Shown piece after piece: positions 1 to 63,221 of a stretch of DNA of 64,000 bases. A program made the translations under genes and the position numbers. The first letter of the stretch is position 1. The number at the start of each line of letters is the position of its first letter. A model generated the notes under the pieces. It did not search any database, was not told the DNA's origin, and worked only from the letters and a program-made list of their open reading frames with translations. The stretch comes from Bolinopsis microptera (Eukaryota > Ctenophora > Tentaculata > Lobata > Bolinopsidae), in NCBI RefSeq assembly GCF_026151205.1, contig NC_087072.1, positions 3,491,375 to 3,555,374 of the forward strand, in the 5' to 3' direction.

Positions 1-417
1 TACCAAATACTTGGACCTCTGCCAGTGTCAGGAAGTTGTTCTTCTGTACCACCTTCACAATTCGCCCGTTCTTACCACCACAGTTGATGGGATAGACAGC
101 TACTCCTCTGTAGTACGAAACATATCCACACTTGTAGTCATCGAGGTAGACCTCGGCTCCACCAATGCGGTCCTGGCAGCAGTCCCATCTGTTGTGAAGT
201 AGGACCAGGTACACTGGGTAGTGTCCCTCCAGGTCCACCTGCCACCAGTTGTCGTGTCCTTTGCCGTGTTTTGTGTGCATTGATGTTCCGTGTGCGTAGT
301 GGCCGTCGACGTTTCCGTCCACAGCTCGAGATGGGATTCCTCCCCATCCCATAGATGAAGATTTGGTGGGTTTGCGGTAGGATAGAAGTCCTAGTCCACT
401 GATCTCCCCGTCTCCTC
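1..417 (-). CDS. Exon 77: F-type lectin domain 26 (partial at window edge)
   Basis: The exon starts at 417 after a CTCAG acceptor (phase 1) and stays open to position 1. It encodes a nearly complete fucolectin domain in a single exon: a leading GG-D linker, [27 protein letters not shown], the conserved His in SMHT, the NWWQVDL strand, the [10 protein letters not shown] fucose-site motif and the closing EVQVFG. The His plus R-x-D-x4-R residues that bind fucose in this family are all present, with the vicinal cysteines. There is no stop, so the gene continues to the left. Confidence 0.85.
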
Positions 418-3400
418 CTGAGCAAATTTGTGTAGAAGAATGACATCCAATTTTGTTGTATGATATAACTGCTTTAAAATATAATGATACATCTGCCCCA
501 TATTCTTTTATACGACCTTCTTGAGGATGTGGTAAGTTGAACCGAAGTAAACATGTCAAGTCACTTACCGAACACTTGAACCTCAGCAAGTTGGAGGTAG
601 TTGTTTTGAGTGATCTTCACGTGGTCTGACTTGGCTCCGTTACAAGATATGTAGTACACGTAATGACCCGGAACATACCGGACAGAACCACATTCCTTGG
701 ACCCAGCAAACACCTTCGCGCCATTGATACGCTCACTGGAAGTGGATTCCTGCCGGTTGTAGATGATAACCAGGTTGATTCTGTACGCCTTTCCGAACTT
801 AACCATCCAGTATTGCACCTTGCCTTTCCTTTCCTTTGGTGAGTGTGTGTGGGACACGGATCTGAAAAGAGGGTTATCAATATTGGAATTATTGTTTCAG
901 AGCCGGCATCTAAATTGTCTAAAAAGGAATTTTATCGCGTTACACACAAGCCACTTCTGCAACTTACCCGCCGCTCCAACGACCGTTAAGGTTTCCGTCA
1001 ACAGCTTTGGATGACCTCCCTGAGGAGTAGGTGGAGCTCTGCTCGGTAACTGCTTTCTGTGAGAGCAGCTTCACGTCTCCCTTGCCCAGGATCGCTCCTG
1101 TCTCTCCTGAAGAATTGTGTTGCTACTTACTACTGATTTGCATACTTTTTATCGTTATCATTCCTTTAGTAATTACTGCACAAAATATTTCAAGGCATCA
1201 CAAAACACCTGATCGTAAGGATGAAGTACAAAGTATCAAACTAACCCTTGTAACAGCGTTTAAGACCGGAGATATTGTTTGTAGTTTGTGAGATAGGCTT
1301 GTGTCCACCGTGTTTAAGGAAGCAATTGCCTGTGTTCTTCTGCAGTGAGAACGCCAAACATGCCTTATCCGCCATACACGCATTCCTACACTCAACAATA
1401 TTCTTATTCTTGGTCTTGAAGTGCCTGATGTCTCCTCCATAGAAGTCCTTATCCACAAGCAAGCAACCTGTTTGAAAATAACAAAGTTAGTTTTGGAATT
1501 GTGCCAGCCTTTGGTCAGTGATTCGCCGCCACCTAATCAAGTAGATGAGGTGAATTTGCATCACGCGATACATCACACGTACAAATATGTTTTTGAGTAG
1601 TAGGAAACTGTTAAGTAAGCGTTTCTAATTCCGGATTCCCTGATAACTGTTGTCACGAGCCCTTAGAGCAGCACTGATCACATATGACACTTTCTATTCC
1701 CTAGAGTCGTGACTCAGTCAGCCAGAACTACTACTGGCACTTCGCCTCACGCTATTTTAAGCTTTCCCTGACAGTTGATTTGACATGATCTTAGAATGAC
1801 AGCGACATAACGTCCTAGATTTGGAATTTAATTGACTTACTCCTGTAGAATTTAGACCACGTGTTCTTGGGTCCTCCGACAGAGAATCTTGTGATGTCCC
1901 TGAATTTCTCCCTGTTGTTTATTCGCTGTGTGTACTGATGATCGTTCAACTGAAATGGAGTTTTGGTGTGAGCTTATCCGTGGTATCGGTTGCTGATATC
2001 AAATTAATTTCCAAATCATCATTAACTTGCTATTAGACTAGACTAACAAATTAATTAGTTATTAATTTGCAACGAACAAGTCCGAGTTGATAATGACGTA
2101 CCTTGAATGTAAATCCGTTGTTCTCAACTCGTACGAGAAGAACAAAGGTATCTCCAGGGAAGATTGATATCAGCCATGGCATTCTCACTTCTCCCGCCCA
2201 CTTCCAGTCTTTCTTCTGCTTCTTTGCAGAGTTCAACACGATTATCTTGTCTTTGGGCCGGGCATTAAAATGCAGAGCGATCTGGGGAAACGAGAATTAG
2301 TAATCTAACCGTCATATACTCTGTAACTCTGGTATTTAATCCACATTCTACAATTTCATCCGCTAGAATGAACTTCTTTACGATGTACGTGATCACTTCG
2401 AGATGGCCAGGCCTACTCCCATGCTGTCTATATATAGTGTGGATATCTGCGAATATATATTCTAAATAACTGATGTACGTGATCGTGTTAATCATATTTG
2501 TGGTGTTAGGTACAAATCCCAACTCTGAACTCACATCGCCACGTGCAGTGTAGAAGTTGAGGACAAACTGTTTGTTGAGGTCCTGAACGGTACCTTGGAA
2601 CACGAGGAAGGTTCCCTCAATCAGTGGGCCTCCTGGCAGATCGTAGCTGCTTCCAGATGTCAGCGTTGTCAGACTCATACCCTCTGTGAAAGGTAAGGTA
2701 AGTTGCTGTGTCAGTAAACTGTAAACCAATTAAATTGGTCACCAACCTGTTGCAACTTGTTGCAGTATACAGTTTACTGACACACCAAATGAGGCGTAAT
2801 AAGAAGGGAAGAAGTGAACGCAATAATCTCTGTCAGTTTACCAACAAAAATTGCATCACAGCTCACTGCTTAGTAGTCATTGCTCTTCCAAAATCACTTA
2901 CTTCCGGTGTTTTGAGTATAGTAAGAGCCGTAGTTAGTAGCTGCAGCTCGCTTTGAGACTCCGCCAGTAGCAAACACCTCAACCTCAGCCAGTGTCAAGT
3001 AGTTCCACTTGTTCTCAATCCTGACCACACTACCCGTCTTGCCCTCACAGTTGATTGGGTATTGGTTTATGCTTTGTTTGGCACTGACGGTACCACAGAG
3101 CTGCTTCTTGCCTCCGTTAACAACGTAGACTTTAGCACCGTCTAGTCTGTCCCAACAGCAGGCGTCCTGTCTGTTGTGAACTAGAACCATGTAGATTGGA
3201 TAATCTTTACCCAGTTCTACCTGCCACCAGACGTTTCTGTTGCCGCGAGTGTGGGAGGAGGTTGCTAGACCCCATACCCCTGCAGCGTTACCGTCCACAG
3301 CTCTACCTGCTTTACCTCCCCACCCCTCGTTTATCTGAGAAGCTGGTCGTCCGAGGGCTACGTTAGAGAGATCACTCGTGATACCACTGCTTCCTCCTGC

Positions 3401-6400
3401 ACAATAAGGAATGTTAGAAATGTATAGGACCCAGAGAGTTAAAATACTCGAAATATAACAGACATGAGGTTGACAGGTAACAGCTGGTGCTGTTGATGAA
3501 ATTGGTATTTGGGTATACATCTAGTCAGAACTAGTCAGATTTATTAACTGTAAAGTAGTCACGTGGTCTCTTACCGAAGACTTGCAATTCAGCCAGGGTC
3601 AGGAAATCGTTCTCGTGTTTAACCTGCACGTAGTCAGCCTTGGCTCCATTACACGAGATAACGTAGGCGTGACGGTTCTTAATCCAGCGGACAAATCCGC
3701 AGAGCTCGGTACCGGCGTAGACCTTGGCTCCGTTAATCCTGGTCTGACAGCAGTTGTCCAGTCGGTTGTAGATCACGACCAGGTTGATATGGTAGGTTCC
3801 TCCTAGCTCCACTCTCCACCACTGCTTGCCCTTGTTTAGGGTGGAGGTGGAGGTGCTGAAATCATTAGTGTTACTTCTAGTGTTACTCTAATACTGTTAT
3901 AGAGGCAGGAGGCAATATTTACTTTACTTCAACTGAAGTCTTGGGATCATTATATATTCATTGATTCTATAACTAACTAGTCCTTATGATTTCTTCGTTA
4001 TAAAGTACGTGGTACGCTTCCTTTAGAGTCTAAGATTCAGACAATCACGAAAATTAGAGTTATCTATGACTTCTTTAAACTACATTTGGTTTCAAAACAG
4101 TCGACTCACCTTGCACCCCATCGGGGGTCAGTATTACCGTCAGTTGCACGCAATGCCTGTCCTCCATAGCCTGTTGTTGACTGGGAAGCATGGTAGGATT
4201 GTGATAGCAACTTGAAGTTTCCACTACCCAACGGGTTGTATCCTGGGATATGCATGCTTAAGATCCTTTGTGTGTACGCATGAGGAATACCAATGCTTTA
4301 TTTTCAACTTAAAAGAACATAATTTCTTGTATTGTTGCGAGTTTTCTTGTTTACACCTTTACACAATTTTTCCCGAACTGTTTCCCATTAATTTGAAAAC
4401 GGAAAGTTTAGGGCCGATAATAATATGTATTATAAAGATAATTACTCAAACCGCTTAAAATTCTCAAACCGCTTAAATTCTTAAACCGCTTAAATTCTCA
4501 AACCGCTTAAAACAACTTAACTCCCGGTTTTATGATTTTCTCATTGCACTGCTGCCGAAGCAGGTGATTATAGTATATTAGTGGTTTGCAGGAGATTCTC
4601 TAGAATTGTTAAAGGTTAAATATTTAAATGATCGAAGCTTCCTTATTCGTCGACCGAGACGTCGCTAATATCATTTCATTCGGGATTTACTTGGATTTGC
4701 ATTGCATTCGGTTGCATTCTTTAAACTGTTATATTAAATCAATTTACTTACTGATATCTAATGAATTCTGTCATTTAAAACGCCCCTAATTTTAGGAAGG
4801 TTTCAAAGACTACACCCTGACATGCACGCCACGAACGGGACAAACTCCACTTATCTGAGTGACCTGGAAAGAACAGCCCTAGTGATCTGGTCCATCACAG
4901 TGTCCTGTATCTCCGTTACCGGAACCTGATAGTCCTTATCTCCTCCCACAAGTACGGAGCTATAAAACTTGACAAGGTCTCAGTGATACTCATCAGGAAC
5001 CTCTGTGTAGCCGACTTGAGTTACGTGGTCTACATCCTGCTAACTGTGGGGAACATTGTGCAACAGGAGTACCAATATGGGGACTTCCTCTGTTATTGGT
5101 CCTACTGCTTTGCCCTCAGCCTCACTGCTACTGAGATGGGCCTGATCTGCGGACTAAATGTAAGCAAGCTGATCACGCTGCATGACCCGCTCAGAGCAAG
5201 GAGCAGGAAGACGAGAACAGGTCGGGTAATAGCGGGGACTGTTTGGTCACTCTCCTTCGGCTGGTCTCTCACGGTTAGGGTCTACAATTACCAGACTCAG
5301 GAGATAACTGCTTACTTTAACAATGCTAGTTTCCAGTGTTTTCCTTCCATCCACACTGAGCTAGCTGACACCCTGGTCAAGGTAAGTGGAGTTATCTACA
5401 ACCTCCTTCCCACCCTCATACTCCTCGTATCTACTGCCTGGCTCTTTTTCTTCGTCAGCAAAACATCTGGGGTTCACAAGCACACTGTCCTGACTCTAGC
5501 TCTGGTGTCTGGGGTGTTCCTGATGGCATACGGTCCTTACTCAGCTGCCATCCTCTTCTACCCTACCCACCAGGACAGTGCCCAGTTCATGATATACTTC
5601 AGATTCGCTGTCTTCAGTCCTTATCTCAACTACGCTGCTAATCCTATAATTTACTTTCTCACTCTGAGGAGCTATAGAGACTTTGTGAAGATGAAGGTGA
5701 CAAGGTGGATTCACAGGTCCGAAATAAGACATGTTAAGGTTGGTCCTGCCACAACGAGCACCAGCGGGAATCACAAACAAGAAACATCCTCTCTCTTCCG
5801 CTCATAGCAAACTTTTTAATTTCTGCTGCCGTATTTGAATGTAATGAACTTTTATCCATCTTGGTTTTTGTTTTTGTATATATCTTGTTATTGCTTATTG
5901 ATTTTGTTTTCTCATTTTGCTGTTTTGTACCATCATTGTTCAGATTATATTAAAAGTAAAGTTGTTTTATTTTTCTGCTTACCTTGATAACAAGATTTTA
6001 GTCCGGATAGGAGGTTTGCTCCATTGCTGTTGCGGTTGTGACCAGGACGTTTTATCCAGCATCTTCCGTTCTTAGTGTGGTATGTGAACGCAACACAATC
6101 AGCATTCTTCATACAAGCAGTCTTACACTCGTTAACAGAGTGGTTCTTTGTAATGAAGGTTTTGAGATCAGCTCCGGCGTAGTTTCTGTTAGCCAACAAA
6201 CAACCTGGGGATAGTATACTAGGTTAGATGGTTTAGGCAAGATGGTAATATTATTATATCTTATATCTAATTTAGATAGTTTAAATAATTAGCTACCAGT
6301 AAGTCCATTAAATTCAATATAGCCTCAATAATAACTCACTCCTGGTCATTTTGGTGAAGGTTCCTTCTGGTCCCTCGAAACTTATGGTACTGATTCTATG

Positions 6401-30400: not shown

Positions 30401-33400
30401 AAGTAAAAAGAAATTTCACAGATCATTTATATTCCAAAGCCCCTTCATTGCAGTTTTATTGTAGATCTACTTAAATCTACAATAAATGTTTGTTCCCCTA
30501 CCTTGTGCTCGACTTGATAACAATCCTTATGGAACACTACCGGATATCAGATATTGAAGACTTACCCGGATGGATTTCTGCAATAGTTCTTTTGCAGTCC
30601 TGAATTAGGGTATCTGAAAATGTTTTTGTAATAAGCTATTTTCCTAAAGTAGGTAGTGTTGTGAATCGTAACTAATAATTTGGCTTCTATCGAGAGCCCT
30701 TTTAGAAACATCTCGAAGTTTGGGTGTAAAATGATTGAGGACGCTCGATTAAATATAGTACATGTCTCATCTTCCAAAATCCGAATAATCTGGATAAGAA
30801 TAAATCTAAATCTGGATTATGCCGTATTGTGGCCGCCTGTGGGTGAGACTAGCTTATACCTGTTGTGCCTTAGAAGCACCAAGGAAACTTACTTCTTAGG
30901 AGAGTATTTGTGTTTATTAGGTGAATTAGAGTCCCATCTCTGGCAGACGTGTCCTGATTTTGTGCGGGATACAGTTCCCCTGTAGTCTGATCCTTTCTTA
31001 TCCGCTTTATGAACACACTCGTCTGGAGATGGAGTTAACCCATTTGTTATACATTTTAGAAACGTTAATAATGAATAAAAGTAGTTTCTTGATAAACGAT
31101 GGCTTGATAGTGAGGTGAATTGGGGTTTGCGGTAAATCTGCCGTTTGCGGTAAATTGGAGCGCAGTAAATCTGCATTTGCAGGAAATTGGAACGCAGTAA
31201 ATCGGAATCTGTAAACAAGGCCAGGGCGGGGTAAATCGGACATTTGTGTCAAAACTCAACAAAAAACCTGGATTGAAAAAATATGAGATTTTCCTGAAAG
31301 ATCAATATTGTATACTTTTGCGAATGAGTATTTGTCAAAAATATGAAGACCAAACAATGTACCTCCGACAGGCTGTTTAGGAGGCAAGGGTTTGACATTA
31401 GGTCCTCGGTAGCTCTGACATCTTCCATGGGGACATGGCTTGTGCTGGTCTCCCGCGCAGCACAAACTGTCTCTCTGAATCACACTGCCGTCACACTTGG
31501 CACCCTGAGGTTTGTAGTGCTTCTCCTTGTTCGATTTACAACAGTGCTGGCCGTTGTAGTAAACATGGGGATGGGAAGGAGGACATTGTGCTGAAAAATT
31601 ACTTGTAACAATAATGTGCGACAGATTTTCGAAAATTTCGTACAAACTTGTAAAAACCCTTAAAATCAAAACTCAACTAAAAACATGGATTGAAAAGATA
31701 TGAGATTTTCCTGAAAGATCAATATTGAATACTTTTGCGAATGATTATTTGTAAAAAATGAAGACCAAACAATGTACCTCCAACAGGCTGTTGAGGAGGC
31801 AAGGGTTTGACATTAGGTCCTAAAGGCCGAGGAGGTAAGGGTCCGTCTTAGGTCCGCGGAAGCTCTGACATCTTCCATGGGGACATGGCTTGTGCTGGTC
31901 TCCCGCGCAGCACAAACTGTCTCTCTGAATCACACTGCCGTCACACTTGGCACCCTGAGGTTTGTAGTGCTTCTCCTTGTTCGATTTACAACAGTGCTGG
32001 CCGTTGTAGTAGGCGTGAGGATGGGAAGGAGGACATTGAGCTGAAAATTACTTGTAACAATAATGTGCGACAGATTTTCGAAAAGTTCGTACAAACTTGT
32101 AAAAACCCTTAAAATCAAAACTCAACTAAAAACATGGATTGAAAAAATATGAGATTTTCCTGAAAGATCAATATTAGATACTTTTGCGAATGATTATTTG
32201 TAAAAAATATGAAGACCAAACTATGTACCTCCAACAGGCCGGTGAGGAGGTCCTAGAGGTCCTAGAGGTGGATGAGGGGGTAAAGGTCCGTGATGAGGTC
32301 CTAGATTTGGATGAGGAGGTAAAGGTCCGTGATGAGGTCCTAGAGGTGGATGAGGGGGTAAGGGTCCGTGATGGGGTCCTAGAGGTGGGTGAGGGGGTAA
32401 AGGTCCGTGATGAGGTCCTAGAGGTGGATGAGGGGGTAAGGGTCCGTGATGAGGTCCAAAAGGTGGATGAGGAGGTAAAGGTCCGTGATGAGGTCCTAGA
32501 GGTGGATGAGGGGGTAAAGGTCCGTGATGAGGTCCTAGAGGTGGATGAGGGGGTAAGGGTCCGTGATGGGGTCCTAGAGGTGGGTGAGGGGGTAAAGGTC
32601 CGTGATGAGGTCCTAGAGGTGGATGAGGGGTAAGGGTCCGTGATGAGGTCCAAAAGGTGGATGAGGAGGTAAAGGTCCGTGATGAGGTCCTAGAGGTGGA
32701 TGAGGGGGTAAGGGTCCGTGATGAGGTCCTAGAGGTGGATGAGGAGGTAAAGGTCCGTGATGAGGTCCTAGAGGTGGATGAGGGGGTAAAGGTCCGTGAT
32801 GAGGTCCTAGAGGTGGATGAGGGGGTAAGGGTCCGTGATGAGGTCCAAAAGGTGGATGAGGAGGTAAAGGTCCGTGATGAGGTCCTAGAGGTGGATGAGG
32901 GGGTAAGGGTCCGTGATGAGGTCCTAGAGGTGGATGAGGAGGTAAAGGTCCGTGATGAGGTCCTAGAGGTGGATGAGGGGGTAAAGGTCCGTGATGAGGT
33001 CCTAGAGGTGGATGAGGAGGTAAAGGTCCGTGATGAGGCCCAAAAGGTGGATGAGGAGGTAAAGGTCCGTGATGAGGTCCTAGAGGTGGATGAGGAGGTA
33101 AAGGTCCGTGATGAGGTCCAAAAGGTGGATGAGGAGGTAAAGGTCCGTCATCAGGTCCGTGGAAGCTCTGACAGTTGCCATGGGGACAGGGAATGTGCTG
33201 GTCTCCCGCGCAGCACAAACTGTCTCTCTGAATCACACTGCCGTCACACTTGGCACCCTGAGGTTTGTAGTGCTTCTCCTTGTTCGATTTACAACAGTGC
33301 TGGCCGTTGTAGTAAACGTGGGGATGGGAAGGAGGACATTGTGCTGAAAAATAACTTGTATTATGATATACAAGGAAAATTGAAACTTAACTGAAAATTG

Positions 33401-36400
33401 GATTCAAAATTCAAATCTCTTTTGAGATGTTAATTTATTTTCCCTGAAAGATATATAGTCTATACTTTTGCAAATAAAAGAATAAGGTAAGTTACAGAAC
33501 TCCTGACCAAACGATAATCATAAATTACTTATGGTACGGCACAAGACAACAGTCATGGGAACATTTTCCGACCAAAATTTTGAAATTTGGTGCCTTTTAA
33601 CCTTAGTGGGTCAATACGTCAAAAAAGCTGACTTGGGTACGCGTACCACCACAATTTCAGTCGGTACGCGCAAATACGGCAAAATACGCGTACCCGTACC
33701 CAGTGCAGATACGAGTACGCCAAAATTAAAAAGCAAACGAATTCATTTATCTCAGAGACAAAATAAAAGACAATAGTAAATATTAAAAATGGAATTCAAC
33801 AATTACACATCCGCAAAGATAACACAGTTCATCAAACATGAACAGTGTCATCAAAAGTAATTATAAAGTCTGTAACAAACCACAGGTCTTACACCCGTTT
33901 GTTACAAACTTTATAATTGCGTTTCAAAATTTAAATTTAAATTTGAAAAATTCAAATTCACTTTTGAGTTTTCGGGTGCGGGTGCGGGTGCGGGTACGTA
34001 CTTACCGCTATCGGGGCCAGAACTCGGTACGCACGTACCCGTACCGCCGTACCGGGTGCGAATACGTATTGACCAACTAAGTTTTTAACCGTGTCAAATT
34101 GGCATACCGTTTCCTTTCATCTTGATTGTAATTGTTCTACTTCAAAGTCGTCAAAGTTTGTAACGAGTTGGGAACCTTTAGATTTTTTAAGCCAAATAAG
34201 TGCTTCGGTGAGTTCTTTATCCAATCTAGATTTCTCTGCCACTTGATCTTCAATGTGTTCTTTAGCCTTAGAGGACACACACTTATCCACCTTTCTCTTA
34301 GTACCTATTCACGCGTGATTTTTTTGGTGTCTCAATGATATTCGTAGAATGAACAGTCGTGCTTGAACTACAACACTACTTGTTGTGGCGATTCAATTTT
34401 CAAATTGTTGTTCATCATTTCCTGTTACAATTTATGAAAGTAGTTCCTTTCCGATCTACTCCACTAATTTAGAAAGTTTGAAATGATATTTCAAGCTTGA
34501 CCCAACCCTTCATGTTTACTCAAACTATAAGGATGTGAATTGTGAGCTATGAATCTAATTTTGCTTGAGCAGGAAATCCAGCTCTTCTCGCTGGCTAATA
34601 TTGGTCTCGTTATCTATAAACTGACTGTACCTCGTAACTGTGTCACTCGGTGACCACGTGCCCGACTGACTGGTGCCGTACCATAAGATAATATGAAAAC
34701 CACAAAATATACCTGTTCTTCTTACTGCAACTCTTGTACCCTGGATGCTAAAGTGATATCTTGCGTCGGGATCTGAAGATGATTTTTAGTTCTATATTTA
34801 TAATCATCTGTATCGAGATGCAATGAAAAATACATAATTTATTCATGCAAAGAAGTCTGGGTTCCTGCACAAACAGATAAACGATACGTACTGTTCATAG
34901 GTGCATGACAGAGATAGTTATCGTTCCATGTGTTTGGATCTGCACCCTCTGACCACTGAATGCAAGTTTTTCCTGCTTTTTGTTCCTTATCTCTAAGACC
35001 ATTGCTGAAGACCCAGCTAAAGTGATAGGGAGAGTTTGGTGGAACACAAAGATAGTTATCTTTCCATGTGTGAGGGTCTGCTGGTTCCAATATCTGTGTA
35101 CATTTCGAGTTGGGGACTTGTCCTGAAAAACATTGAGATGAGAAACTGAGTTCAGCATTCAAAGGAGATAAAAATTTAAAACTCAATAAGGTTGATTCAT
35201 TGACCCTGAGTTCCATTTAAAATGAAAACACTACTTTTAAATGTGTTGTGGGGATAATTAAAACCCCAGTCTCCTACCATTCATGTTGAAACGTATTCCA
35301 GGATCGGCTTTGTTGTTCTTCCAGCAGAAGAAATTGTCTCTCCATGTGTGTCCGGCGGGTTCTGCTGCTTCAAAGATCCTGTCACAGTAATATCCTCCCG
35401 GTACACCAGCGAAACTCCATTTGAAGTCTTGGGGCCAGGACGGCAGGGGTTTCCCGACTGGAATAGCATTTTGTCAGATCACTAGTTCAGTTTAAGTTTT
35501 GAAGAGCTAGGTTAGCTAATTTCGAAACTACATTTGGAATATTTCTTATCTTTTTGGAAAAAGGAAAACGCGATCATACCTGCTGTTCCAGTGTATTCGG
35601 CGTTACACAGATAGTTATCATTCCACGTGTGTGGATCTGCTCCTTCGTGCCATTGGATACAAGGTTTCCCTTGTTTCTGGAACCCATCCTTCATAGCACC
35701 GCTGAAAGCCCATACAAAGTGGTAAGGGGAGTTTTGTTGCACACAAAGGAAGTTGTCTCTCCAAGAATGGTTGGCTGGTTCTGCTCCCTCGCTGATTTGA
35801 GTACATCTTTGTCCGGGGATGGCTCCTGTGATCATTCAGATTTTAACAAATATTTGCATTAATTCGTAAATTTATTCAGTCTCTCAATTCATTTTCACTG
35901 GTATTCGTTTTAAATGGAAGAAGTCGTAACGCTTACCAGCAAAGGACCATCTAAGTCCGGGATCCGCTCTGTCGCTTCTCCAGCACATGAAATTATCATT
36001 CCACGTGTGAGGATCCTTCGGCTCCCATAATTTAACACAGGTGTGTCCGGGAGGAGGGCCATGGTTGGACCATTTAAAGTCCTCCGGCCAGCTTGGAAGG
36101 GTTGCTGAAAAGAGGGACTCAGGTAATTCCTACAGATAGAATAGAATGTAACCTAACTACTTGTTTTAAGCTAACAAAAAATTTGTAATATAAATTGAAG
36201 AATGATTTTACTTACCGTAATTTTTACAGTTAAGATTGGCACTCTTTAACTCGTTTTTATTACGCGTGTATTTCGCTCCGAAGGGAGTATGTTTCAGCCA
36301 GCAGTGCTTGTTTCCTTTATGGAAAGTGAAAGATCTGCAACCTCGAGACTGTGCTCTGTTACATTCTTGTGCACAATGGTTGAAATCCCTGGCACGGAAG

Positions 36401-37963
36401 TTCTTGATATCAGCACCCCAGTAGTCGACATTATCCTCGACACACACTTGGAATCTCCCTAAAATATTACCCATTACGAACTGAATTTCCTTTCTTTTAA
36501 TAGGATTAAATGAACAATTCTCAAGCATAAATGAATCGGTGATAAATAATAAAATTTTCTTTTCTCTCAAAAAAAATTTCTTTTCTCAACAAGTCCCCAG
36601 CATAAATGAACAAGTCCAATAATCAGTATTTCCCGCAATCAGCCAACGAACGAATTTCAAAAAGTTCCAATTAAATCTTTACAACATTGGCAGAATATTT
36701 TCTTTCATCATCAGTACCTAATAAAGATAAGATTAGTACTCCAAGCTCCCAGCATAAATGAACAAGTTCCCATCATAAATGAACAAGTCCCCGGCATAAA
36801 TGAACAAGTAACCAGCATAAATGAACAATTAACCAGCATAAATGAACAAGTAACCAGCATAAATGAACTATTAACCAGCATAAATGAACAAGCAACCAGC
36901 ATAAATGAACAAGTGAACCTGCACATGCAAGAATGGGCTTAGTAGTTTTTGGTAGTTTTGAGATAAACGGGAAAAACTATCCCATTTCTTCAGGTATATT
37001 TTTGGTCTACGTTACCTATCCCACAGAATGTTCTATAAATGGGTGGGCCAAGTTACGTAGACCAAATCAGTTTATTGGAAATAAGTTGGGTCAAGTAACT
37101 TGCCCATATCACCCTGCTTTTAAAAAGGAGTGAAGACCAAAAAAGTGTAATTACTTCGTGGGCTATGTTAGCTAGCCCATTCTTGACCTGCATATCTTAG
37201 GTGGAAGTCGACATCCGTGTTATACTTATATAGCCCGTTATTGAATTCTACAAAAAAAACTGATTTTACAAAAACATGCTTAAATTTACTTCAAATTTTA
37301 CATGCAGATGCGTCTATGGATCCTAATGATTTCTAGCCACAGAATGAGAAAATGAGCCAAGTTACTTGGCCCATTGTTGCATGTGCAGGTTAAAGTCACG
37401 ACCGTAAAATGAAGAGTCTAAATTAAATGGCAGCTTAATGACATACCGCATAATGAAACATCCACTTCTCCGAACCCTGTGAAATTGGATGATTAGCTAT
37501 TGGCAACTCATAGAGGGACTAGAGAGTTATAGAGACCTGATACCAGACTGGATGACACTTAGTCTGGTCAGTTATGGATATTTACCTGCATTTCATAGTA
37601 GATGGCTGAAAAAATTTTTGGGGGCCCTTTAAGGTCTTTAGAACCGAAAAAACTTCGGAGCCCTAAAATTCAGACTGGGAAAATCGCCCGTTTGGACACG
37701 CATTTCGTGATTTAGTATTCTCTGCTGTTGGGCCATCCTTTGGGATGTGGAGCTAAGTCTGGTTTCTATACTTAGGGGTCGTTCACATATTACGTAATCA
37801 ATATTTTGGAATTTTTTCCCTTTTTTCCCTGGAAACACTTTTCCTTACGTTTGTTGCTACCCTGATCATTATGAGCCGAAATTATTGTTATGATATCCGG
37901 CCAAGCACCTTTCAAACTACATAATTAAGTTATAGTCGGATGTCCGATCAATTTCTCCCCTCC

Positions 37964-38004
<41 letters not shown>

Positions 38005-38780
38005 TAATCAACCGTAAGCATTCGGAACACCCCCCCCCCCTCGGCTGATTACGTAATATGTGAACGACCCCTTATTATACAATTTATCATGCCATAAGTA
38101 TCACATTATGGCACTATGTAAAAGGGGATCGTTGCTAGCGTCAAAACTGTTTTAACCCTGCCTTAGTCAGTTGAAAGTCTGATAGCATATGTTCCGTTTG
38201 ATTTGACCAAACTAATGCCTTTCATTGCTTTATGATCACTTTCTCGATCTTCGGCTTCCTCGTTCACATCTTTGTAGTTATTATTTACATCCACATCTTG
38301 TAAAGTTTACACTAAAATGTAGGACCGAGGTGGTCGAATACAAAATTGTTTTTAAAAAGCAGGTATTAATGCACGATAATCCATTTGAGAAAGATCACCT
38401 GTCTCAAATCGCCATCTAGCGCTATATAGCGCTAGATGGCGTCTTTGGATCCTAATGACTTTGGATCCTAATGACTTCTAGCCACAGAAAAAATGAGCCA
38501 AGTTACTTGGCCCATTGTTGCATGTGCAGGTTCAAATGTTCCCATGACTGTTGTCTTGTGCCGTACCATAAGCAAGTTCCATAACTTACCTTATATTACT
38601 CTCAACAAAATATTAAGCACTCATGTTACAAGACATTTAAAATAGTTAACAATTACCTCCAGCCGGTGGGGGTCCAAGTTGGGGTGGTAGTTCTACCTCC
38701 AGTTCTACTGAAGTGAAGGAGAGAACCTTGCTGACCAGCAGCAAGGCTAGTAGAGAACAGCCCCGGAATATTAGTCTCAT
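1..38780 (-). CDS. Giant secreted multi-lectin mosaic protein (77 exons, 3' end outside window)
   Basis: One minus-strand gene traced exon by exon from an ATG at 38780 with a signal peptide to the left edge, where it is still open. I placed 77 exons; every internal exon has an AG acceptor and GT donor, and all 76 junction phases are compatible. Exon lengths sum to about 20.2 kb (over 6,700 residues). The domain order is apple, Cys/Trp repeats, Cys-rich and Pro/His modules, kringles, then 26 F-type lectin domains with bulb-type lectin, galectin, apple and an unrecognised domain interspersed. No other start exon and no stop-containing terminal exon was found between modules, which favours one transcript over a cluster. 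Three exons carry one-base frameshifts. The inferred role is secreted or matrix carbohydrate recognition. An alternative is several genes whose terminal exons I missed; transcript data would decide. Module details are in separate entries. Confidence 0.8.
569..1106 (-). CDS. Exons 75-76: F-type lectin domain 25
   Basis: Two exons, 968..1106 (phase 1 in, 2 out) and 569..861 (phase 2 in, 1 out). Exon 75 gives [12 protein letters not shown] and AVDGN; exon 76 gives [33 protein letters not shown] and LAEVQVFG. The conserved His is kept, but the R-x-D-x4-R site reads [10 protein letters not shown], so the Asp and both vicinal Cys are lost. Canonical fucose binding is doubtful in this copy. Confidence 0.8.
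1246..1467 (-). CDS. Exon 74: apple/PAN domain
   Basis: A single symmetric phase 1-1 exon following galectin 4. It carries the PAN/apple pattern: an opening Cys in [16 protein letters not shown], two Cys in [16 protein letters not shown], the core NGNCFLK, and a closing SGLKRCYKG. Apple domains bind protein or carbohydrate partners. The usual FTF/FTY motif reads FSL here. It is the last of four galectin-apple pairs in the gene. Confidence 0.82.
1468..1840 (-). other. Intron 73, no recognised content
   Basis: Spacer between the galectin 4 and apple exons. I see no repeat, RNA gene or reading frame of note in it. Confidence 0.6.
1841..2683 (-). CDS. Exons 71-73: galectin domain 4
   Basis: Exons 2535..2683, 2102..2281 and 1841..1949 (phases 1-0, 0-0, 0-1) encode one galectin carbohydrate-recognition domain. 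The first gives [16 protein letters not shown]; the second gives [15 protein letters not shown] and DWKWAGEVR; the third closes with a [13 protein letters not shown] segment. The sugar-contacting His, Asn, Arg, second Asn, Trp, Glu and Arg of the family can all be matched, so this is the best preserved binding site of the four galectins. Galectins bind beta-galactosides. Having one inside a secreted mosaic with a signal peptide is unusual, since classical galectins leave cells without one. Confidence 0.82.
2902..3396 (-). CDS. Exon 70: F-type lectin domain 24
   Basis: Whole domain in one phase 1-1 exon. Visible parts are a GGSSG linker, [51 protein letters not shown], and [11 protein letters not shown]. 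The His and vicinal Cys are present. The spacing after R-Q-D is one residue longer than the canonical R-x-D-x4-R. It ends in a Tyr/Asn linker ([12 protein letters not shown]) that leads into galectin 4, the same arrangement as exons 44, 55 and 63. Confidence 0.85.
3575..4242 (-). CDS. Exons 68-69: F-type lectin domain 23
   Basis: Exons 4110..4242 (phase 1-2) and 3575..3855 (phase 2-1). Motifs are [67 protein letters not shown] and LAELQVFG (each shown separately). The first-site His is replaced in STSTLNKG and the R-x-D spacing is one longer than usual. The intron before exon 68 hosts the nested receptor gene on the other strand. Confidence 0.82.
4443..4513. repeat. Tandem repeat, ~17-18 bp unit
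   Basis: Four imperfect copies of a unit built on CTCAAACCGCTTAAATT lie side by side within intron 67, upstream of the receptor gene. There are no coding consequences. Confidence 0.8.
4822..5807 (+). CDS. Orphan class A GPCR nested in the lectin gene (one apparent frameshift)
   Basis: Single-exon seven-transmembrane receptor. The ATG at 4822 opens an N-terminus with two N-glycosylation sequons (NGT, NST) and TM1. At 4921-4926 one base is missing, exactly where the TM1 Gly-Asn motif should be; the frame then stays open from about 4927 to the stop at 5807. Later landmarks are [12 protein letters not shown] (TM2), a Cys before TM3, LHDPLRAR in loop 2, a [13 protein letters not shown]5, and NPIIYF (NPxxY) in TM7. 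The DRY position reads SKL, as I recall for cnidarian orphan receptors. No ligand can be assigned. It is transcribed against the host gene. If the deletion is real the receptor is a pseudogene; sequencing error is as likely. Confidence 0.8.
5983..6204 (-). CDS. Exon 67: apple/PAN domain
   Basis: Phase 1-1 exon after galectin 3. It shows [43 protein letters not shown] and SGLKSCYQG, the full apple cysteine and aromatic pattern. It is closest to the apple exon at 9555-9773, with which it shares the CWIKRPGHN core. Its end lies close to the 3' flank of the antisense receptor gene. Confidence 0.85.
6340..7050 (-). CDS. Exons 64-66: galectin domain 3
   Basis: Exons 6902..7050, 6604..6783 and 6340..6460 (phases 1-0, 0-0, 0-1). 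Motifs are [46 protein letters not shown], and a last exon with [16 protein letters not shown]. The trademark H-x-N-x-R becomes HIAGR, losing the first Asn, while the second Asn, Trp and Glu remain. Galactoside binding may be weakened or altered. Confidence 0.8.
7167..7631 (-). CDS. Exon 63: F-type lectin domain 22
   Basis: Complete domain in one phase 1-1 exon: [68 protein letters not shown], and LPEVQVYG followed by a Tyr-containing linker into galectin 3. The vicinal Cys and the last Arg of the fucose site are missing, so this copy is probably structural or of changed specificity. Confidence 0.82.
7779..8755 (-). CDS. Exons 61-62: F-type lectin domains 20 and 21 (frameshift in 20)
   Basis: Exon 61 (8183..8755) holds domain 20 and the N-terminal third of domain 21; exon 62 (7779..8077) completes domain 21. 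Domain 20 has [17 protein letters not shown] and HNRRDSAQ, then a one-base deletion in the T run at 8515-8518 leads to a stop at about 8475. One frame over, [19 protein letters not shown] and [10 protein letters not shown] continue without stops to the donor at 8183, and the exon length fits the required phase only if one base is restored. Domain 21 keeps SVSHT and [10 protein letters not shown], a complete fucose site. Confidence 0.78.
8515..8518 (-). other. Apparent one-base deletion in lectin exon 61
   Basis: A run of four T (A on the coding strand) where five would keep the frame. Exon 61 is 573 bp although phases 1 in and 2 out demand 3n+1. Lectin homology continues cleanly in the next frame. 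Either a homopolymer sequencing error or an inactivating mutation. Confidence 0.8.
8893..9431 (-). CDS. Exons 59-60: F-type lectin domain 19
   Basis: Exons 9299..9431 (phase 1-2) and 8893..9170 (phase 2-1). Motifs are [80 protein letters not shown], and VAEVQVYG. The His is kept, but the site reads NRMDTAQEE with no vicinal Cys and no final Arg. It follows an apple exon, as domains 13, 23 and 25 do. Confidence 0.83.
9555..9773 (-). CDS. Exon 58: apple/PAN domain
   Basis: Phase 1-1 exon directly after galectin 2: [43 protein letters not shown], and SAFKSCYTG. All apple cysteines visible in the sister copies are present. Confidence 0.85.
9906..10530 (-). CDS. Exons 56-57: galectin domain 2
   Basis: Exons 10382..10530 (phase 1-0) and 9906..10209 (phase 0-1). 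The last two galectin exons of the sister copies are fused here. Motifs are [52 protein letters not shown], and a C-terminus with [16 protein letters not shown]. The H-x-N-x-R and second Asn are intact. The Trp-Glu region reads KWLYEK with a changed loop and an insertion before it. Confidence 0.82.
10682..12135 (-). CDS. Exons 54-55: F-type lectin domains 16, 17 and 18
   Basis: Exon 54 (11033..12135, phase 1-0) is the largest lectin exon. It encodes two complete domains and two thirds of a third; exon 55 (10682..10892) finishes domain 18. Fused exons imply intron loss. Domain 16 has SVTHT and [10 protein letters not shown] (R-x-D-x4-R kept, Cys pair lost). Domain 17 has SVSYS and NRKEAATR (site lost). 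Domain 18 has [11 protein letters not shown] with one extra residue. All three keep AVDGN, NWWxV and the closing EVQVFG; exon 55 ends in a YYLNNRGS linker into galectin 2. Confidence 0.85.
12274..13474 (-). CDS. Exons 50-53: F-type lectin domains 14 and 15
   Basis: Exons 13283..13474, 12804..13176, 12538..12673 and 12274..12421 (phases 1-1, 1-2, 2-0, 0-1). Domain 14 is split by an extra intron inside VDLEG; it has SVTHT and [10 protein letters not shown], a full site, and ends EVQVFGTGG. Domain 15 starts in the tail of exon 51 with [18 protein letters not shown]. Its site is lost ([15 protein letters not shown]) and it ends LAEVQVYG. Confidence 0.83.
13615..14159 (-). CDS. Exons 48-49: F-type lectin domain 13
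   Basis: Exons 14021..14159 (phase 1-2) and 13615..13901 (phase 2-1). Visible motifs are [65 protein letters not shown] and LAEVQVYG. The conserved His is replaced (SVMSTL) and WW becomes FF in the middle strand, so canonical fucose binding is unlikely. Confidence 0.83.
14281..14505 (-). CDS. Exon 47: apple/PAN domain
   Basis: Phase 1-1 exon after galectin 1: [44 protein letters not shown], and SGLKRCFYG. Complete apple pattern, and the first of the four galectin-apple pairs in transcription order. Confidence 0.86.
14697..15274 (-). CDS. Exons 45-46: galectin domain 1
   Basis: Exons 14946..15274 (phase 1-0) and 14697..14805 (phase 0-1). The first two galectin exons of the sister copies are fused here. 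Motifs are [50 protein letters not shown], and a final [12 protein letters not shown]. The family's His, Asn, Arg, second Asn, Trp and Glu are all present. Confidence 0.85.
15422..15898 (-). CDS. Exon 44: F-type lectin domain 12
   Basis: Complete domain in one phase 1-1 exon: [83 protein letters not shown], and a [12 protein letters not shown] linker into galectin 1. His and vicinal Cys are kept; the Arg spacing is one longer than canonical. Confidence 0.87.
16022..17013 (-). CDS. Exons 42-43: F-type lectin domains 10 and 11
   Basis: Exon 42 (16331..17013, phase 1-0) encodes domain 10 and two thirds of domain 11; exon 43 (16022..16169) closes domain 11. Domain 10 has [16 protein letters not shown] and [10 protein letters not shown], a full fucose site. 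Domain 11 has SIAYTG and NRKGAESY, a lost site. The exon pair is a diverged duplicate of exons 26-27 and 34-35. Confidence 0.85.
17173..18340 (-). CDS. Exons 39-41: unrecognised domain copy 2 plus F-type lectin domain 9
   Basis: Exon 39 (17737..18340, phase 1-2) begins with a ~155-residue domain I do not recognise (landmarks [52 protein letters not shown]) and runs without a break into a fucolectin start ([18 protein letters not shown]). Exons 40 (17433..17562) and 41 (17173..17320) complete that lectin: [23 protein letters not shown] and LAEVQVYG, a full fucose site. The unknown domain has two Cys and a beta-rich look and is also found in exon 31. Confidence 0.8.
18454..19572 (-). CDS. Exons 36-38: F-type lectin domain 8 plus bulb-type mannose lectin 2
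   Basis: Exons 19313..19572 (1-0), 18800..19177 (0-0) and 18454..18622 (0-1). Domain 8 has [33 protein letters not shown] and LAEVQVFG, with an intact site. It passes directly into a bulb-type (B_lectin, monocot mannose-binding) domain. This carries three Q-x-D-x-N-x-V-x-Y signatures: [18 protein letters not shown] (across the exon 37/38 junction) and QNDGNMVYY. In this family each such motif can hold one mannose. Confidence 0.85.
19693..20708 (-). CDS. Exons 34-35: F-type lectin domains 6 and 7
   Basis: Exon 34 (20011..20708) encodes domain 6 and most of domain 7; exon 35 (19693..19840) closes it. Domain 6 has [13 protein letters not shown], but its site is replaced ([11 protein letters not shown]). 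Domain 7 has [13 protein letters not shown] and NRRDSGQNR, which keeps R-x-D-x4-R without the Cys pair, and ends MAEVQVYG. Confidence 0.85.
20894..20908 (-). pseudogene. Possible remnant of an F-type lectin 3' exon end
   Basis: On the minus strand this intronic spot reads VQVFG followed by a consensus donor (G|GTAAGA), exactly as at the end of real lectin exons. The upstream coding sequence and acceptor are missing. The neighbouring intron sequence is shared with the intron at about 24500-24590, so this looks like exon debris left by block duplication. Confidence 0.4.
21013..22159 (-). CDS. Exons 31-33: unrecognised domain copy 1 plus F-type lectin domain 5
   Basis: Exon 31 (21556..22159, phase 1-2) carries the first copy of the unrecognised ~155-residue domain ([56 protein letters not shown]), then a lectin start ([28 protein letters not shown]). 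Exons 32 (21301..21436) and 33 (21013..21160) complete lectin domain 5. Its site is altered: His is gone (STSSTKK) and the segment reads [10 protein letters not shown]. The domain ends LAELEVYG. Confidence 0.8.
22280..23351 (-). CDS. Exons 28-30: F-type lectin domain 4 plus bulb-type mannose lectin 1
   Basis: Exons 23092..23351 (1-0), 22617..22982 (0-0) and 22280..22448 (0-1). Lectin domain 4 has [34 protein letters not shown] and LAEVQVFG. The bulb-type lectin that follows has a decayed first site ([10 protein letters not shown]) and two intact Q-x-D-x-N-x-V-x-Y motifs (QSDGNMVLY across the exon junction, and QDDNNMVFY). Same architecture as exons 36-38. Confidence 0.85.
23486..24446 (-). 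CDS. Exons 26-27: F-type lectin domains 2 and 3
   Basis: Exon 26 (23752..24446, phase 1-0) encodes domain 2 and two thirds of domain 3; exon 27 (23486..23633) closes domain 3. Domain 2 has [16 protein letters not shown] and [10 protein letters not shown]. Domain 3 has [13 protein letters not shown] and NRRDCCQEK. Both keep the His and R-x-D-x4-[RK] residues and the vicinal Cys. Ends MAEVQVFG. Confidence 0.86.
24594..25243 (-). CDS. Exons 23-25: F-type lectin domain 1
   Basis: First fucolectin of the array, in the three-exon form (25114..25243, phase 1-2; 24872..25001, phase 2-0; 24594..24741, phase 0-1) that is probably ancestral. It has [59 protein letters not shown] and LAEVEVYG. A full fucose site is present. 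Confidence 0.86.
25343..26140 (-). CDS. Exons 20-22: second Cys/Trp repeat block, 3' part
   Basis: Exon 20 (25961..26140) has [17 protein letters not shown] and one [11 protein letters not shown] signature. Exon 21 (25596..25826) has two: [11 protein letters not shown] and [11 protein letters not shown]. Exon 22 (25343..25408) is a short basic linker rich in Arg/Lys. All are symmetric phase 1 exons and pair one for one with exons 5, 6 and 7 of the first block. The module is not one I can name; conserved Cys, Trp and acidic Asp-Asn suggest a small disulfide-linked or metal-binding repeat. Confidence 0.8.
26588..27722. repeat. Kringle cassette copy 2 (direct repeat of 30004-31248)
   Basis: Exons and introns of the kringle, the poly-C tract with its flanks, and a trailing set of GCGGTAAATC(T/G)G-like repeats are all shared with 30004-31248 at high identity, introns included. 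The duplication is therefore recent compared with the lectin-domain duplications. Confidence 0.8.
26856..27527 (-). CDS. Exons 17-19: kringle domain 2
   Basis: Exons 27398..27527 (phase 1-2), 27071..27118 (2-2) and 26856..26932 (2-1) join to a standard kringle: [47 protein letters not shown] and GAWCYN, ending [10 protein letters not shown]. All six kringle cysteines are placed as expected. Kringles bind proteins or lysine-like ligands in extracellular proteins. This copy lies within the segment bounded by inverted repeats at 26224-28662, and the parallel block at 35-36 kb lacks it. Confidence 0.88.
28043..28409. mobile_element. Small inverted-repeat element (MITE-like), nested
   Basis: Ends match as an imperfect inverted repeat beginning CATAGTTGGTTC at 28043 and finishing GAACCAACTATG at 28409. 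The interior is AT-rich with repeated GCACTTT/ACGCAC words and no coding capacity. It lies inside the larger kringle-bearing segment. Confidence 0.6.
28725..29263 (-). CDS. Exons 15-16: second Cys/Trp repeat block, 5' part
   Basis: Exon 15 (29096..29263) has [16 protein letters not shown] and [13 protein letters not shown]. Exon 16 (28725..28970) has [36 protein letters not shown] and [11 protein letters not shown]. Both are symmetric phase 1 exons and nearly identical to exons 3 and 4 of the first block, which is good evidence for duplication of a whole run of exons. Function unknown. Confidence 0.82.
29449..29910 (-). CDS. Exon 14: Cys-rich module fused to an apple/PAN domain
   Basis: One phase 1-1 exon. 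The N-terminal half is the Cys-rich module ([50 protein letters not shown]) with eight or more cysteines. The second half is an apple domain ([57 protein letters not shown]). The apple half is the sister of exon 2. Elsewhere in the gene the two modules sit in separate exons, so an intron was lost or never gained here. Confidence 0.85.
30004..31248. repeat. Kringle cassette copy 1 (direct repeat of 26588-27722)
   Basis: Same exon, intron and poly-C layout as the copy at 26588-27722, including the GGTAAATCGG-type repeats at the upstream side. Unlike copy 2, I see no inverted terminal repeats bounding it. Confidence 0.78.
30279..31022 (-). CDS. Exons 11-13: kringle domain 1
   Basis: Exons 30893..31022 (phase 1-2), 30566..30613 (2-2) and 30279..30358 (2-1). 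They join to [52 protein letters not shown], and [10 protein letters not shown]. The six kringle cysteines are all there. It sits between two Cys-rich exons (10 and 14). It differs from kringle 2 by one extra Gly codon and a few substitutions. Confidence 0.88.
31363..31590 (-). CDS. Exon 10: Cys-rich module (intact copy)
   Basis: Phase 1-1 exon encoding [50 protein letters not shown], then a short proline linker ([12 protein letters not shown]). Similar CPxSHPxxYYNG modules are, as I recall, common in cnidarian and other invertebrate extracellular proteins; their function is not established. Confidence 0.82.
31778..32040 (-). CDS. Exon 9: Cys-rich module (one-base frameshift in its proline linker)
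   Basis: Same Cys-rich module as exons 8, 10 and 14, intact through CPHGRCQS. In the linker, at about 31847-31850, one base is missing compared with the matching place in exon 8 (33150-33157). The frame then hits a TAG, while the next frame continues as proline-rich sequence to the donor at 31778. The exon is 263 bp although a phase 1-1 exon needs a multiple of three. Confidence 0.75.
31847..31850 (-). other. Apparent one-base deletion in lectin exon 9
   Basis: The coding strand reads CCTAAGACGG where exon 8 has CCTGATGACGG. The missing base sends the frame into a stop within the linker. Confidence 0.7.
32229..33343 (-). CDS. Exon 8: Cys-rich module with a long Pro/His repeat tail
   Basis: The exon opens with the Cys-rich module ([42 protein letters not shown]). 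It continues as about 23 copies of a 13-residue unit, [13 protein letters not shown] with F/L variation, and ends GPPHRPVGG at the donor. The tail should be extended, polyproline-like and rich in paired His, a possible metal- or pH-sensitive spacer. A one-base deletion at 32627-32630 breaks the frame (stop near 32613), yet the repeat is perfectly in register in the next frame to the donor. Confidence 0.78.
32250..33150. repeat. 39-bp minisatellite encoding the Pro/His tail
   Basis: About 23 tandem copies of a 39-bp G-rich (plus strand) unit beginning GGATGAGGGGGTAAAGGTCC, with alternating GAGGAGG/GAGGGGG and CTAGAGG/CAAAAGG variants. The unit is a multiple of three, so several frames on both strands stay open. 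Variants recur in higher-order blocks, which suggests unequal exchange of several units at a time. Confidence 0.9.
32627..32630 (-). other. Apparent one-base deletion in the exon 8 repeat
   Basis: This unit has a run of four G where the equivalent units have five. It is the only break in an otherwise in-register repeat of about 900 bp. Confidence 0.8.
33344..34712. other. Intron 7
   Basis: Contains the inverted-repeat element at 33602-34082, a ~40-bp word near 33537-33577 that recurs inverted at 38534-38575, and AT-rich sequence. No coding content seen. Confidence 0.6.
33602..34082. mobile_element. Non-autonomous DNA transposon-like element
   Basis: Ends are inverted copies: CTTAGTGGGTCAATACGT on the left and ACGTATTGACCAACTAAG on the right, with one mismatch. 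Just inside both ends are runs of GTACGCGTACC / GGTGCGGGTGCG words, also in inverted arrangement. No transposase frame. Confidence 0.65.
34713..36104 (-). CDS. Exons 3-7: first Cys/Trp repeat block
   Basis: Five symmetric phase 1 exons: 35937..36104, 35580..35825, 35278..35457, 34892..35122 and 34713..34772. Together they carry six copies of a signature [D/E]P-x-x-[HS]-[ST]-W-x-D-N-[FY]-x-C, for example [22 protein letters not shown] and [11 protein letters not shown]. Each is preceded by a Trp/Phe strand such as FKWSNHG or [10 protein letters not shown] and a G-x-x-C. Exon 7 is a short linker, [19 protein letters not shown] cannot name the domain. Order and sequence match exons 15, 16, 20, 21 and 22. 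Confidence 0.82.
36216..36458 (-). CDS. Exon 2: apple/PAN domain
   Basis: Phase 1-1 exon. It has [53 protein letters not shown], and a final NLNCKNYG. A complete apple pattern of Cys with FTF and CWLK cores, and the first folded domain after the signal peptide. Confidence 0.87.
36746..36914. repeat. Tandem repeat, ~21-bp unit
   Basis: About eight copies of a unit close to AACCAGCATAAATGAACAAGT, with two more stray copies near 36590-36620. In intron 1. Confidence 0.85.
36915..38533. mobile_element. Inverted-repeat element(s), nested
   Basis: The left end has AACCTGCACATGCAA-x-AATGGGC at about 36915. Its inverted counterpart GCCCATTGTTGCATGTGCAGG occurs twice, ending at about 37393 and 38533. 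Both right ends are preceded by the same stretch (CTAGCCACAGAA, AAATGAGCCAAGTTACTTGG), so one copy is a duplicated end. The MITE at 37775-38071 lies inside the longer version. Confidence 0.55.
37775..38071. mobile_element. MITE with perfect 26-bp inverted ends (PIF/Harbinger- or ISL2EU-like)
   Basis: Starts GGGGTCGTTCACATATTACG and ends with its exact reverse complement over 26 bp, flanked both sides by TTA as a possible 3-bp target duplication. The interior has a run of 39 C at 37965-38003. Decayed relatives lie in the kringle cassettes (near 26590-26720 and 30004-30130). No coding capacity. Confidence 0.8.
38657..38780 (-). CDS. Exon 1: start codon and signal peptide of the giant lectin gene
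   Basis: The ATG at 38780 opens MRLIFRGC, followed by a hydrophobic core (SLLALLLV), a small-residue cleavage region and a short acidic/proline linker ([13 protein letters not shown]) that ends at a GGTAAT donor in phase 1. This is a textbook secretion signal and the only one found in the whole exon chain. A good acceptor (TATTTCACAG) just upstream at about 38786-38795 suggests a further 5' untranslated exon to the right. Confidence 0.85.
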
Positions 38781-62410: not shown

Positions 62411-62580
62411 TGCACCATCATCTAGCTGAATGTATTAAGAAAATGCTTTTCTAGAAACAGAATAACCGTGATTTATGATTGAAAGTATCCCGAGGGGGCT
62501 GCTAAAAGATTTTGAATATTGTAAGGGTACCTACAGAATCTTTGCAAGAACGTATTGTTAATGATGTCTATTTATGATGT

Positions 62581-63156: not shown

Positions 63157-63221
63157 ATTTGTTTATGTAAATTTTGTAGATATTTTACTGTACTATTTTA
63201 TATTGTAAGCAACATGTCCTA

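Follow-up and report, generated by a model that had tools for sequence, protein, structure and literature searches.

F-type lectins (FTL; the fucolectins, with FBP32 and the eel agglutinin AAA among them) typically form tandem arrays and mosaics, and the longest array in the available excerpts of PMC5712786 has five domains joined to a pentraxin. The same domain is predicted 42 times, together with galectin, bulb-type lectin, PAN, kringle, tectonin and apple-like repeats, in a giant gene of the ctenophore Bolinopsis microptera that is described here. The gene lies on the minus strand of contig NC_087072.1 (C1), partly within a 64,000-nt stretch (C1:3491375-3555374, the window) and partly to the left of it. 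Apple/PAN arrays of factor XI, prekallikrein and the apicomplexan lectins MIC4 and SML-2 are alike in the predicted fold of the repeat but have few copies, against ~102 here, and the repeat of this gene has two invariant Cys and no Pfam or PDB sequence match. The giant animal proteins titin and MUC16 belong to the same size class; we take titin to be an intracellular Ig/Fn3 protein and MUC16 a mucin, neither of them a lectin array. To our knowledge, the predicted product would be by far the largest lectin. In the available excerpts of PMC6278862, the colloblast and tentacle candidate genes of Mnemiopsis are similar in secretion and in lectin and TECPR domain types, with many ctenophore-specific genes among them; 'discoidin' and 'galectin' occur 0 times in its main text, and the likeness is one of domain type. 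No description of the giant gene was found in the excerpts of the open-license literature on giant lectins or on ctenophore F-type lectin, galectin and tectonin (including PMC11797021 and PMC11184263).

Gene model and predicted product

The locus is probably, although with modest confidence, a single gene of 97 kb and ~173 exons encoding one secreted, multivalent sugar-binding protein of ~17,300 residues (~1.9 MDa), for which an adhesive or mucus role is proposed and colloblast glue is the leading guess. The whole model has 173 exons, spans 97,204 bp (C1:3432951-3530154, minus strand), and has a median intron of 143 bp. The predicted product has 17,304 positions including one X, a mass of 1.93 MDa, a pI of 9.5, and 499 Cys.

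The gene was modeled on the minus strand using a spliced-gene dynamic program with codon bias taken from clear exons, simple splice-site matrices, and GT-AG introns only. Sequence to the left of the window was fetched (90 kb), of which the final model uses 60 kb; negative positions are left of window base 1. The exon list was curated by hand, with lists from successive runs compared and exons removed, restored, or re-bounded. Exons at 43449-43546, -39862, -53020, and -59351 were spurious additions of earlier runs, in which good exons had been dropped, and were taken out. The junction scores are high (2.6% of the GT dinucleotides and 4.2% of the AG dinucleotides overall score at or above the medians) but are not independent support because the program permits only GT-AG and selects by these scores.

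A phase-compatible minus-strand exon chain, which the original prediction had proposed from the window, was recovered by the dynamic program as far as the left window edge, with 76 exons starting in the window and not 77. The window encodes ~6,312 of the ~17,304 residues, short of the minimum of 6,700 proposed for it; a minisatellite exon at 32.2-33.3 kb, mostly outside the model, may explain part of the gap. For the whole protein, that figure was an underestimate of ~2.5-fold, the apple-like repeat array and the tectonin part lying beyond the earlier view. The window part of the model has no terminal exon, as had been expected; the left edge is crossed within an exon (the exon at 468 extends to -150), and the proposed leftward extension led to a terminal exon 58.4 kb left of the window. 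The stop codon TAA is at C1:3432951 (window coordinate -58423), the C-terminus reads GLYLLFKGIQECD, and an AT-rich stretch lies beyond. The one signal peptide predicted earlier was found in the exon that begins with ATG 38780, which was bridged by hand to the chain, on phase, across a 2.2-kb intron. A 21-bp tandem repeat is present in the first intron (36728-36933). No transmembrane anchor was seen because the top 19-residue hydropathy outside the signal peptide was only 1.68, within a galectin.

Codon-level constraint was estimated from internal exon pairs; 14 pairs were listed, of which one self-pair and two absent from the model of that time were left out. In 11 of the 11 pairs compared, dN was below dS; dN/dS was 0.06-0.34 in ten pairs, several of them with saturated dS, and 0.59 in the remaining pair, whose members are very similar. 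Since dN < dS in all of these pairs and exons are kept in relatives, the chain is beyond chance.

Domain order and sugar motifs

The predicted protein has 42 FTL domains (41 intact), 6 galectins, 2 bulb-type lectins, 8 PAN domains, 2 kringles, a tectonin stretch, and ~102 Cys repeats; a partial F5/8-like piece at the C-terminus was counted separately. The signal peptide is followed by PAN, six W-x-DN-x-LC units, QCPP domains, kringle, QCPP, PAN, and a second unit set with another kringle. Then come two rounds of FTL x4, bulb lectin, and unclassified domain, followed by FTL x4, galectin-PAN, FTL x6, galectin-PAN, FTL x4 (one frame-broken), galectin-PAN, FTL x2, galectin-PAN, FTL x10, galectin-PAN, FTL x4, galectin-PAN, and FTL x4. 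The C-terminal part consists of about four repeats, tectonin, the rest of the 102 repeats, the F5/8-like piece, and the stop. The part left of the window thus adds 16 FTL, 2 galectins, 2 PAN, the tectonin stretch, the ~102 apple-like repeats, and the C-terminal piece. Coordinates in the window are given in Table 1.

Table 1. Features of the giant gene in the window (window coordinates)
Feature	Position	Strand	Remark
Window part of the gene	1..38780	(-)	76 of 173 exons start here
First coding exon, ATG 38780 and signal peptide	38657..38780	(-)	attached by hand on phase
PAN/apple exon 1 of 8	36216..36458	(-)	local profile
N-terminal block, six W-x-DN-x-LC units of ~45 aa	34892..36104	(-)	in four exons
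Cys-rich QCPP domain, four copies	29449..33343	(-)	two truncated in model; kringle exons 30279-31022 between
PAN 2	29449-29910	(-)	shares exon with a QCPP copy
Second N-terminal block: units, kringle, units	25596..29263	(-)	kringle exons 26856-27533; partial duplicate of 30-36 kb
FTL domains 1-4	22838..25243	(-)	local profile
Bulb-type lectin (B_lectin) copy 1 and first unclassified domain	21657..22835	(-)	
FTL domains 5-8	19031..21656	(-)	local profile
Bulb-type lectin copy 2 and second unclassified domain	17837..19030	(-)	
FTL domains 9-12	15488..17836	(-)	local profile
Galectin 1 and PAN	14281..15428	(-)	
FTL domains 13-18	10745..14121	(-)	
Galectin 2 and PAN	9555..10685	(-)	
FTL domains 19-22	7218..9399	(-)	second (8183-8755) frame-broken near 8.5 kb
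Galectin 3 and PAN	5983..7051	(-)	
FTL domains 23-24	2971..4210	(-)	local profile
Galectin 4 and PAN	1246..2908	(-)	
FTL domains 25-26	1..1106	(-)	local profile

The 26 FTL domains predicted earlier for the window were all found again using a local profile. One three-domain exon matched Pfam PF22633 (F5_F8_type_C_2; E 2.1e-36) and, in PDB, FBP32 (E 2.7e-26), eel lectin, and fucolectin-related chains; the remaining domains were assigned by the local profile. The F-type fucose motif is H-x24-R-x-D-x4-R/K in the excerpted PMC5712786 and was searched for with 24-29 residues between H and R. It was matched in 15 of the 41 intact domains (11 of these with 26 residues between H and R), and R-x-D-CC or R-x-D-x-CC is present in 23 of the 41.

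Galectin was matched by PF00337 (Gal-bind_lectin) at E 2.1e-14 on one exon and 1.7e-6 on another. The residues that we take to bind sugar in galectins, H-x-N-x-R and W..E, are kept in 4/6 (as modeled) and 6/6 copies, respectively, and in the fifth galectin HFNGR stands directly ahead of a frame break. PAN (PF14295/PF00024) was matched on the two exons scanned (E 2.5e-11 [PAN_4] and 9.2e-9), with all 8 classical PAN domains found by local profile. Kringle (PF00051) reached 34.4 bits against a cut-off of 34.3 on one of three exons, and two exons left of the window matched tectonin (PF19193) at 44.8 and 54.0 bits (cut-off 30). The searches proposed in the original prediction thus bore out F5_F8_type_C_2, Gal-bind_lectin, PAN_4, and Kringle; B_lectin (PF01453) stayed below its cut-off of 32.4 bits on each of two exons scanned singly (23.0 and 13.9 bits), the domain itself spanning several. 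The motif QxDxNxVxY, presumably the mannose motif of bulb-type lectins, occurs 5 times in the whole protein, always within the two bulb-type copies. With motifs kept in 15/41 FTL and 4/6 galectins as modeled, and five mannose motifs, only part of the sugar sites need be active.

No Pfam family was over the cut-off on the W-x-DN-x-LC unit exons scanned, and no PDB sequence match was obtained with the one such exon searched or with the one exon searched of the unclassified domain. Three units per exon pair suggest that the N-terminal units may form two beta-trefoils. The N-terminal block is duplicated within 25596-36458 at 82-98% DNA identity, which may reflect a recent event or uncollapsed haplotypes. 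The QCPP copy at 32.2-33.3 kb continues into a frame-broken minisatellite of 39-bp units; this tandem repeat (32139-33256) encodes Pro/His/Gly repeats beside the QCPP exon, and one 38-bp unit shifts the frame.

Apple-like repeat array

About 102 copies of a ~75-residue Cys repeat were found using a local profile (>=15 bits), and only two Cys are invariant among 24 aligned copies. No Pfam family was over the cut-off on the repeat stretches scanned, and no match to PDB was found using the repeat profile. Comparison with PAN/apple using hhalign was weak (22 columns, probability 20, E 0.0011). The predicted fold is a helix packed on an antiparallel sheet, with Cys after the helix and before the next strand, as in PAN/apple domains. 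Between about -21 and -57 kb, matching exons of the array lie ~16-17 kb apart at 36-51% identity, and the array looks like a large internal duplication. An insert between two repeat exons (about -39131 to -40690, C1:3450684-3452243), with a frame break beside it, is possibly a mobile element.

Sequon depletion

The giant protein has 23 N-x-S/T sequons (x not P), compared with 149.8 ± 11.3 in 1,000 shuffles (minimum 115), a depletion of ~6-fold; the reversed motif occurs 129 times. Using an earlier model, N and S/T separated by one residue were counted 30 times, vs 122-153 for gaps of 0 and 2-6. Column-wise shuffles that respect the repeat structure gave 14 vs 54.5 ± 6.1 for the 102 repeats and 1 vs 18.9 ± 3.1 for the 41 FTL domains. 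No sequon was present in the domains of six further FTL loci in this genome (0 vs 25.9 in shuffles), and a cadherin open reading frame (ORF) was mildly depleted (15 vs 30). Single ORFs were mixed (observed/shuffle: L002 1/0.6, L003 1/4.8, L004 0/0.6, L005 3/2.6, L008 3/2.3, L045 5/3.1, L047 1/5.9, L048 3/4.7). Five named animal FTL proteins were depleted (8 vs 21.9), and further FTL proteins, mostly metagenome or bacterial, were not (105 vs 117; 448 vs 377). The depletion would fit passage through the endoplasmic reticulum (ER) and selection against self-binding.

Related loci

Six other loci of the same genome were roughly modeled, of which five join FTL with galectin, bulb lectin, or PAN in one predicted gene (C4:5.25 Mb, C9:0.99 Mb, C13:7.56 Mb, C13:14.37 Mb, and C1:12.03 Mb) and the sixth (C7) has FTL only. 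Because five of the six combine them, mixed sugar classes appear to be a family habit with the giant gene as its extreme. The domain combination is therefore not unique to this gene, and what is unexpected here is the size and the repeat array rather than the mix of galectin and FTL. The five smaller genes are 385-3,841 residues long in rough models ending at the fetched stretch and have no apple-repeat array, apart from one weak repeat-like match each in two of them (26 and 28 bits); the gene at C13:7.56 Mb has an apparent signal peptide, then two galectins and four FTL. Further F5/8-type or F-type lectin clusters are at C7:5.26-5.30 Mb, C13:4.99-5.09 Mb, and C11:10.11-10.14 Mb.

One gene or several

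A one-gene parse was compared with a two-gene parse, and the one-gene parse scored higher at 36 of the 36 introns of >=200 bp tested, with a margin of 20.5 bits at intron 25244-25960; the introns near 15.9 kb (123-161 bp) are below this cut-off. On these sequence grounds, we infer one transcript for the whole chain. In relatives, linkage was judged solely from reported contig sizes: P0012 and P0014 (96% and 92%) match FTL exons ~1,700 residues apart and come from contigs of equal reported size (368,968), and P0009 and P0011 (77% and 74%) match exons ~840 residues apart, again from contigs of equal reported size (429,962). The lectin half and the repeat half are linked in no relative; in the 74-79% grade, a repeat ORF (P0002; 335,491) and an FTL ORF (P0004; 1,585,575) are on contigs of differing size. 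The start of P0001 ('MVKDT..') suggests that entries of the protein database are ORFs called straight from unspliced contigs, and the relatives' ORFs thus give no splicing evidence beyond fused exons. One such fusion is P0016 (55% over 389 residues), a single FTL-FTL-galectin ORF that spans two intron positions of the giant gene.

Several observations weigh against a single giant secreted lectin. The weakest one-gene margin is 3.9 bits, at intron 4243-5982, which hosts a G protein-coupled receptor (GPCR) gene, and the next two are 11.7 and 12.2 bits, the last at a 4.7-kb intron left of the window; the scoring was home-made and used the model prior to restoring exon 25596-25826, with the first two introns (including that after the signal-peptide exon) and the last few left out. 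The unaided program picked other 5' ends (36474 in one run and 43546 in others), and the second of the two phase-compatible ATGs, at -5580, is an internal, in-frame Met within a galectin exon, its hydrophobic run being part of the galectin itself. The Hormiphora spliced leader had 0 genome-wide matches within 3 mismatches. Reading-frame breaks were seen in four exons or more: a repeat exon at ~-40.7 kb, galectin 5 at ~-5.56 kb, exon 8183-8755 at ~8.5 kb, and the minisatellite exon at 32.2-33.3 kb. The strict fucose motif is lacking in 26 of the 41 intact FTL domains, two other F5/8-type loci of the genome are undepleted in sequons (3 vs 2.6 and 3 vs 2.3), and the apple-fold model is of low confidence (mean pLDDT 65, made on a relative's sequence, with TM-scores of ~0.2 over the whole multi-domain model). 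The link to colloblasts, a leading guess, would rest on the lectin and TECPR domain types in the excerpts of PMC6278862.

Two or more adjacent multi-lectin genes could instead lie head to tail on the same strand and give separate mRNAs, perhaps by spliced-leader trans-splicing, for example an N-terminal block with FTL/galectin genes and a separate tectonin/apple-repeat gene. This arrangement is unlikely; it stays alive because ctenophores trans-splice leaders (PMC8527503, in part), and the genome also has smaller galectin and FTL genes at other loci, one of which appears to encode its own signal peptide. When the Hormiphora leader was used to look for internal starts, its best local matches had 16-19 mismatches of 44, no better than shuffles; in the excerpts of PMC8527503, the leader of Mnemiopsis is treated as distinct in sequence but with an end in common. 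The split at intron 4243-5982, nearly accepted given its small margin, would begin with an FTL exon and no signal peptide, and only ATG 38780 and the one within the galectin exon, among 10 hydrophobic ATGs in the 97-kb region, are compatible in phase with the chain. Module junctions are also similar, phase is kept across them, and the FTL-galectin junction is fused in the P0016 ORF. That the chain is gene-model stitching across broken copies of a decaying or mis-assembled tandem array is very improbable: the frame-broken exons and the N-terminal duplicates would speak for it, but the breaks are few in ~17,300 codons, dN is below dS in every pair, matching ORFs are open in relatives, and sequons are depleted in all three protein parts. 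The breaks may be assembly errors, alleles, or real. Some are masked by false splice sites of the program, such as that at ~-5.56 kb behind a false acceptor, and further hidden breaks are possible. The program's intron 8530-8648, which bridges the 8.5-kb break, was rejected as artificial, as it would remove core strands.

Other elements in the window

A rhodopsin-type GPCR open frame (7tm_1, E 7.6e-19; 4863-5804, plus strand) is nested on the opposite strand in intron 4243-5982 of the giant gene. A C2H2 zinc-finger open frame is at 51046-51417 (plus strand). A 158-nt inverted repeat (57587-58099; 96% complementary, 197-nt loop) forms a hairpin or MITE-like element, and a reverse transcriptase fragment (63180-63572; RVT_1, E 1.1e-18) with a 122-nt inverted pair (60390-63698) represents mobile-element remains.

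Proposed role

The gene model, the signal peptide, the lack of a convincing transmembrane segment, the sugar motifs kept in part of the domains, and the sequon depletion support the original prediction of a single secreted chain that reads sugars of the fucose, beta-galactoside, and mannose classes. The signal peptide would route the giant protein through the ER. The N-terminal half would then be a multivalent sugar-binding surface of 42 F-type (fucose), 6 galectin (beta-galactoside), and 2 bulb-type (mannose) domains with PAN and kringle; the C-terminal half, with tectonin and ~102 mini-PAN/apple repeats, would act either as a long thread braced by disulfides or as another array of weakly binding sites. 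Through avidity, a single covalent chain with many weak sites could grip surfaces that carry fucose, galactose, and mannose on prey, microbes, or mucus of the animal itself, and with few N-glycan sites self-capture would be avoided. Sugar-dependent multivalent adhesion by a secreted thread is, from its sequence, most likely.

The same protein could also serve immunity, as an opsonin or agglutinin in mucus or on the body surface that recognizes microbes through several sugar classes, which is possible but on the unlikely side. A part in immune recognition is ascribed to F-type lectins and to galectins (excerpts of PMC5712786), and both families are numerous in the genome (at least 138 PF22633 and at least 30 PF00337 matches in the 264.65-Mb assembly of 232 contigs). 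The 102-repeat thread and the size would better suit a structural or adhesive polymer, yet an immune role is compatible with adhesion.

Colloblast glue is a ctenophore hallmark. A further, speculative and rather doubtful proposal is that colloblasts or mucus cells make the ~1.9-MDa protein as one translation product and that it is itself the glue of ctenophores. The covalent thread would then have 50 lectin domains of three sugar classes in one half and 102 apple-type domains in the other, and selection against sequons would have left it with hardly any N-glycans, so that it sticks to prey but not to itself. In the excerpts of PMC6278862, there is no BLAST support for homology of the colloblast candidates with known adhesives. 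With its new repeat array, its 5' and 3' ends, and its conservation in relatives, the giant gene is a concrete colloblast-glue candidate, and its product would rank among the largest secreted animal proteins. The avoidance of sequons in lectins of the secretory route would be a simple rule, applicable to other lectin families. If the glue proposal is true, ctenophores would have a class of adhesive based on sugar avidity and not on DOPA or low-complexity proteins.
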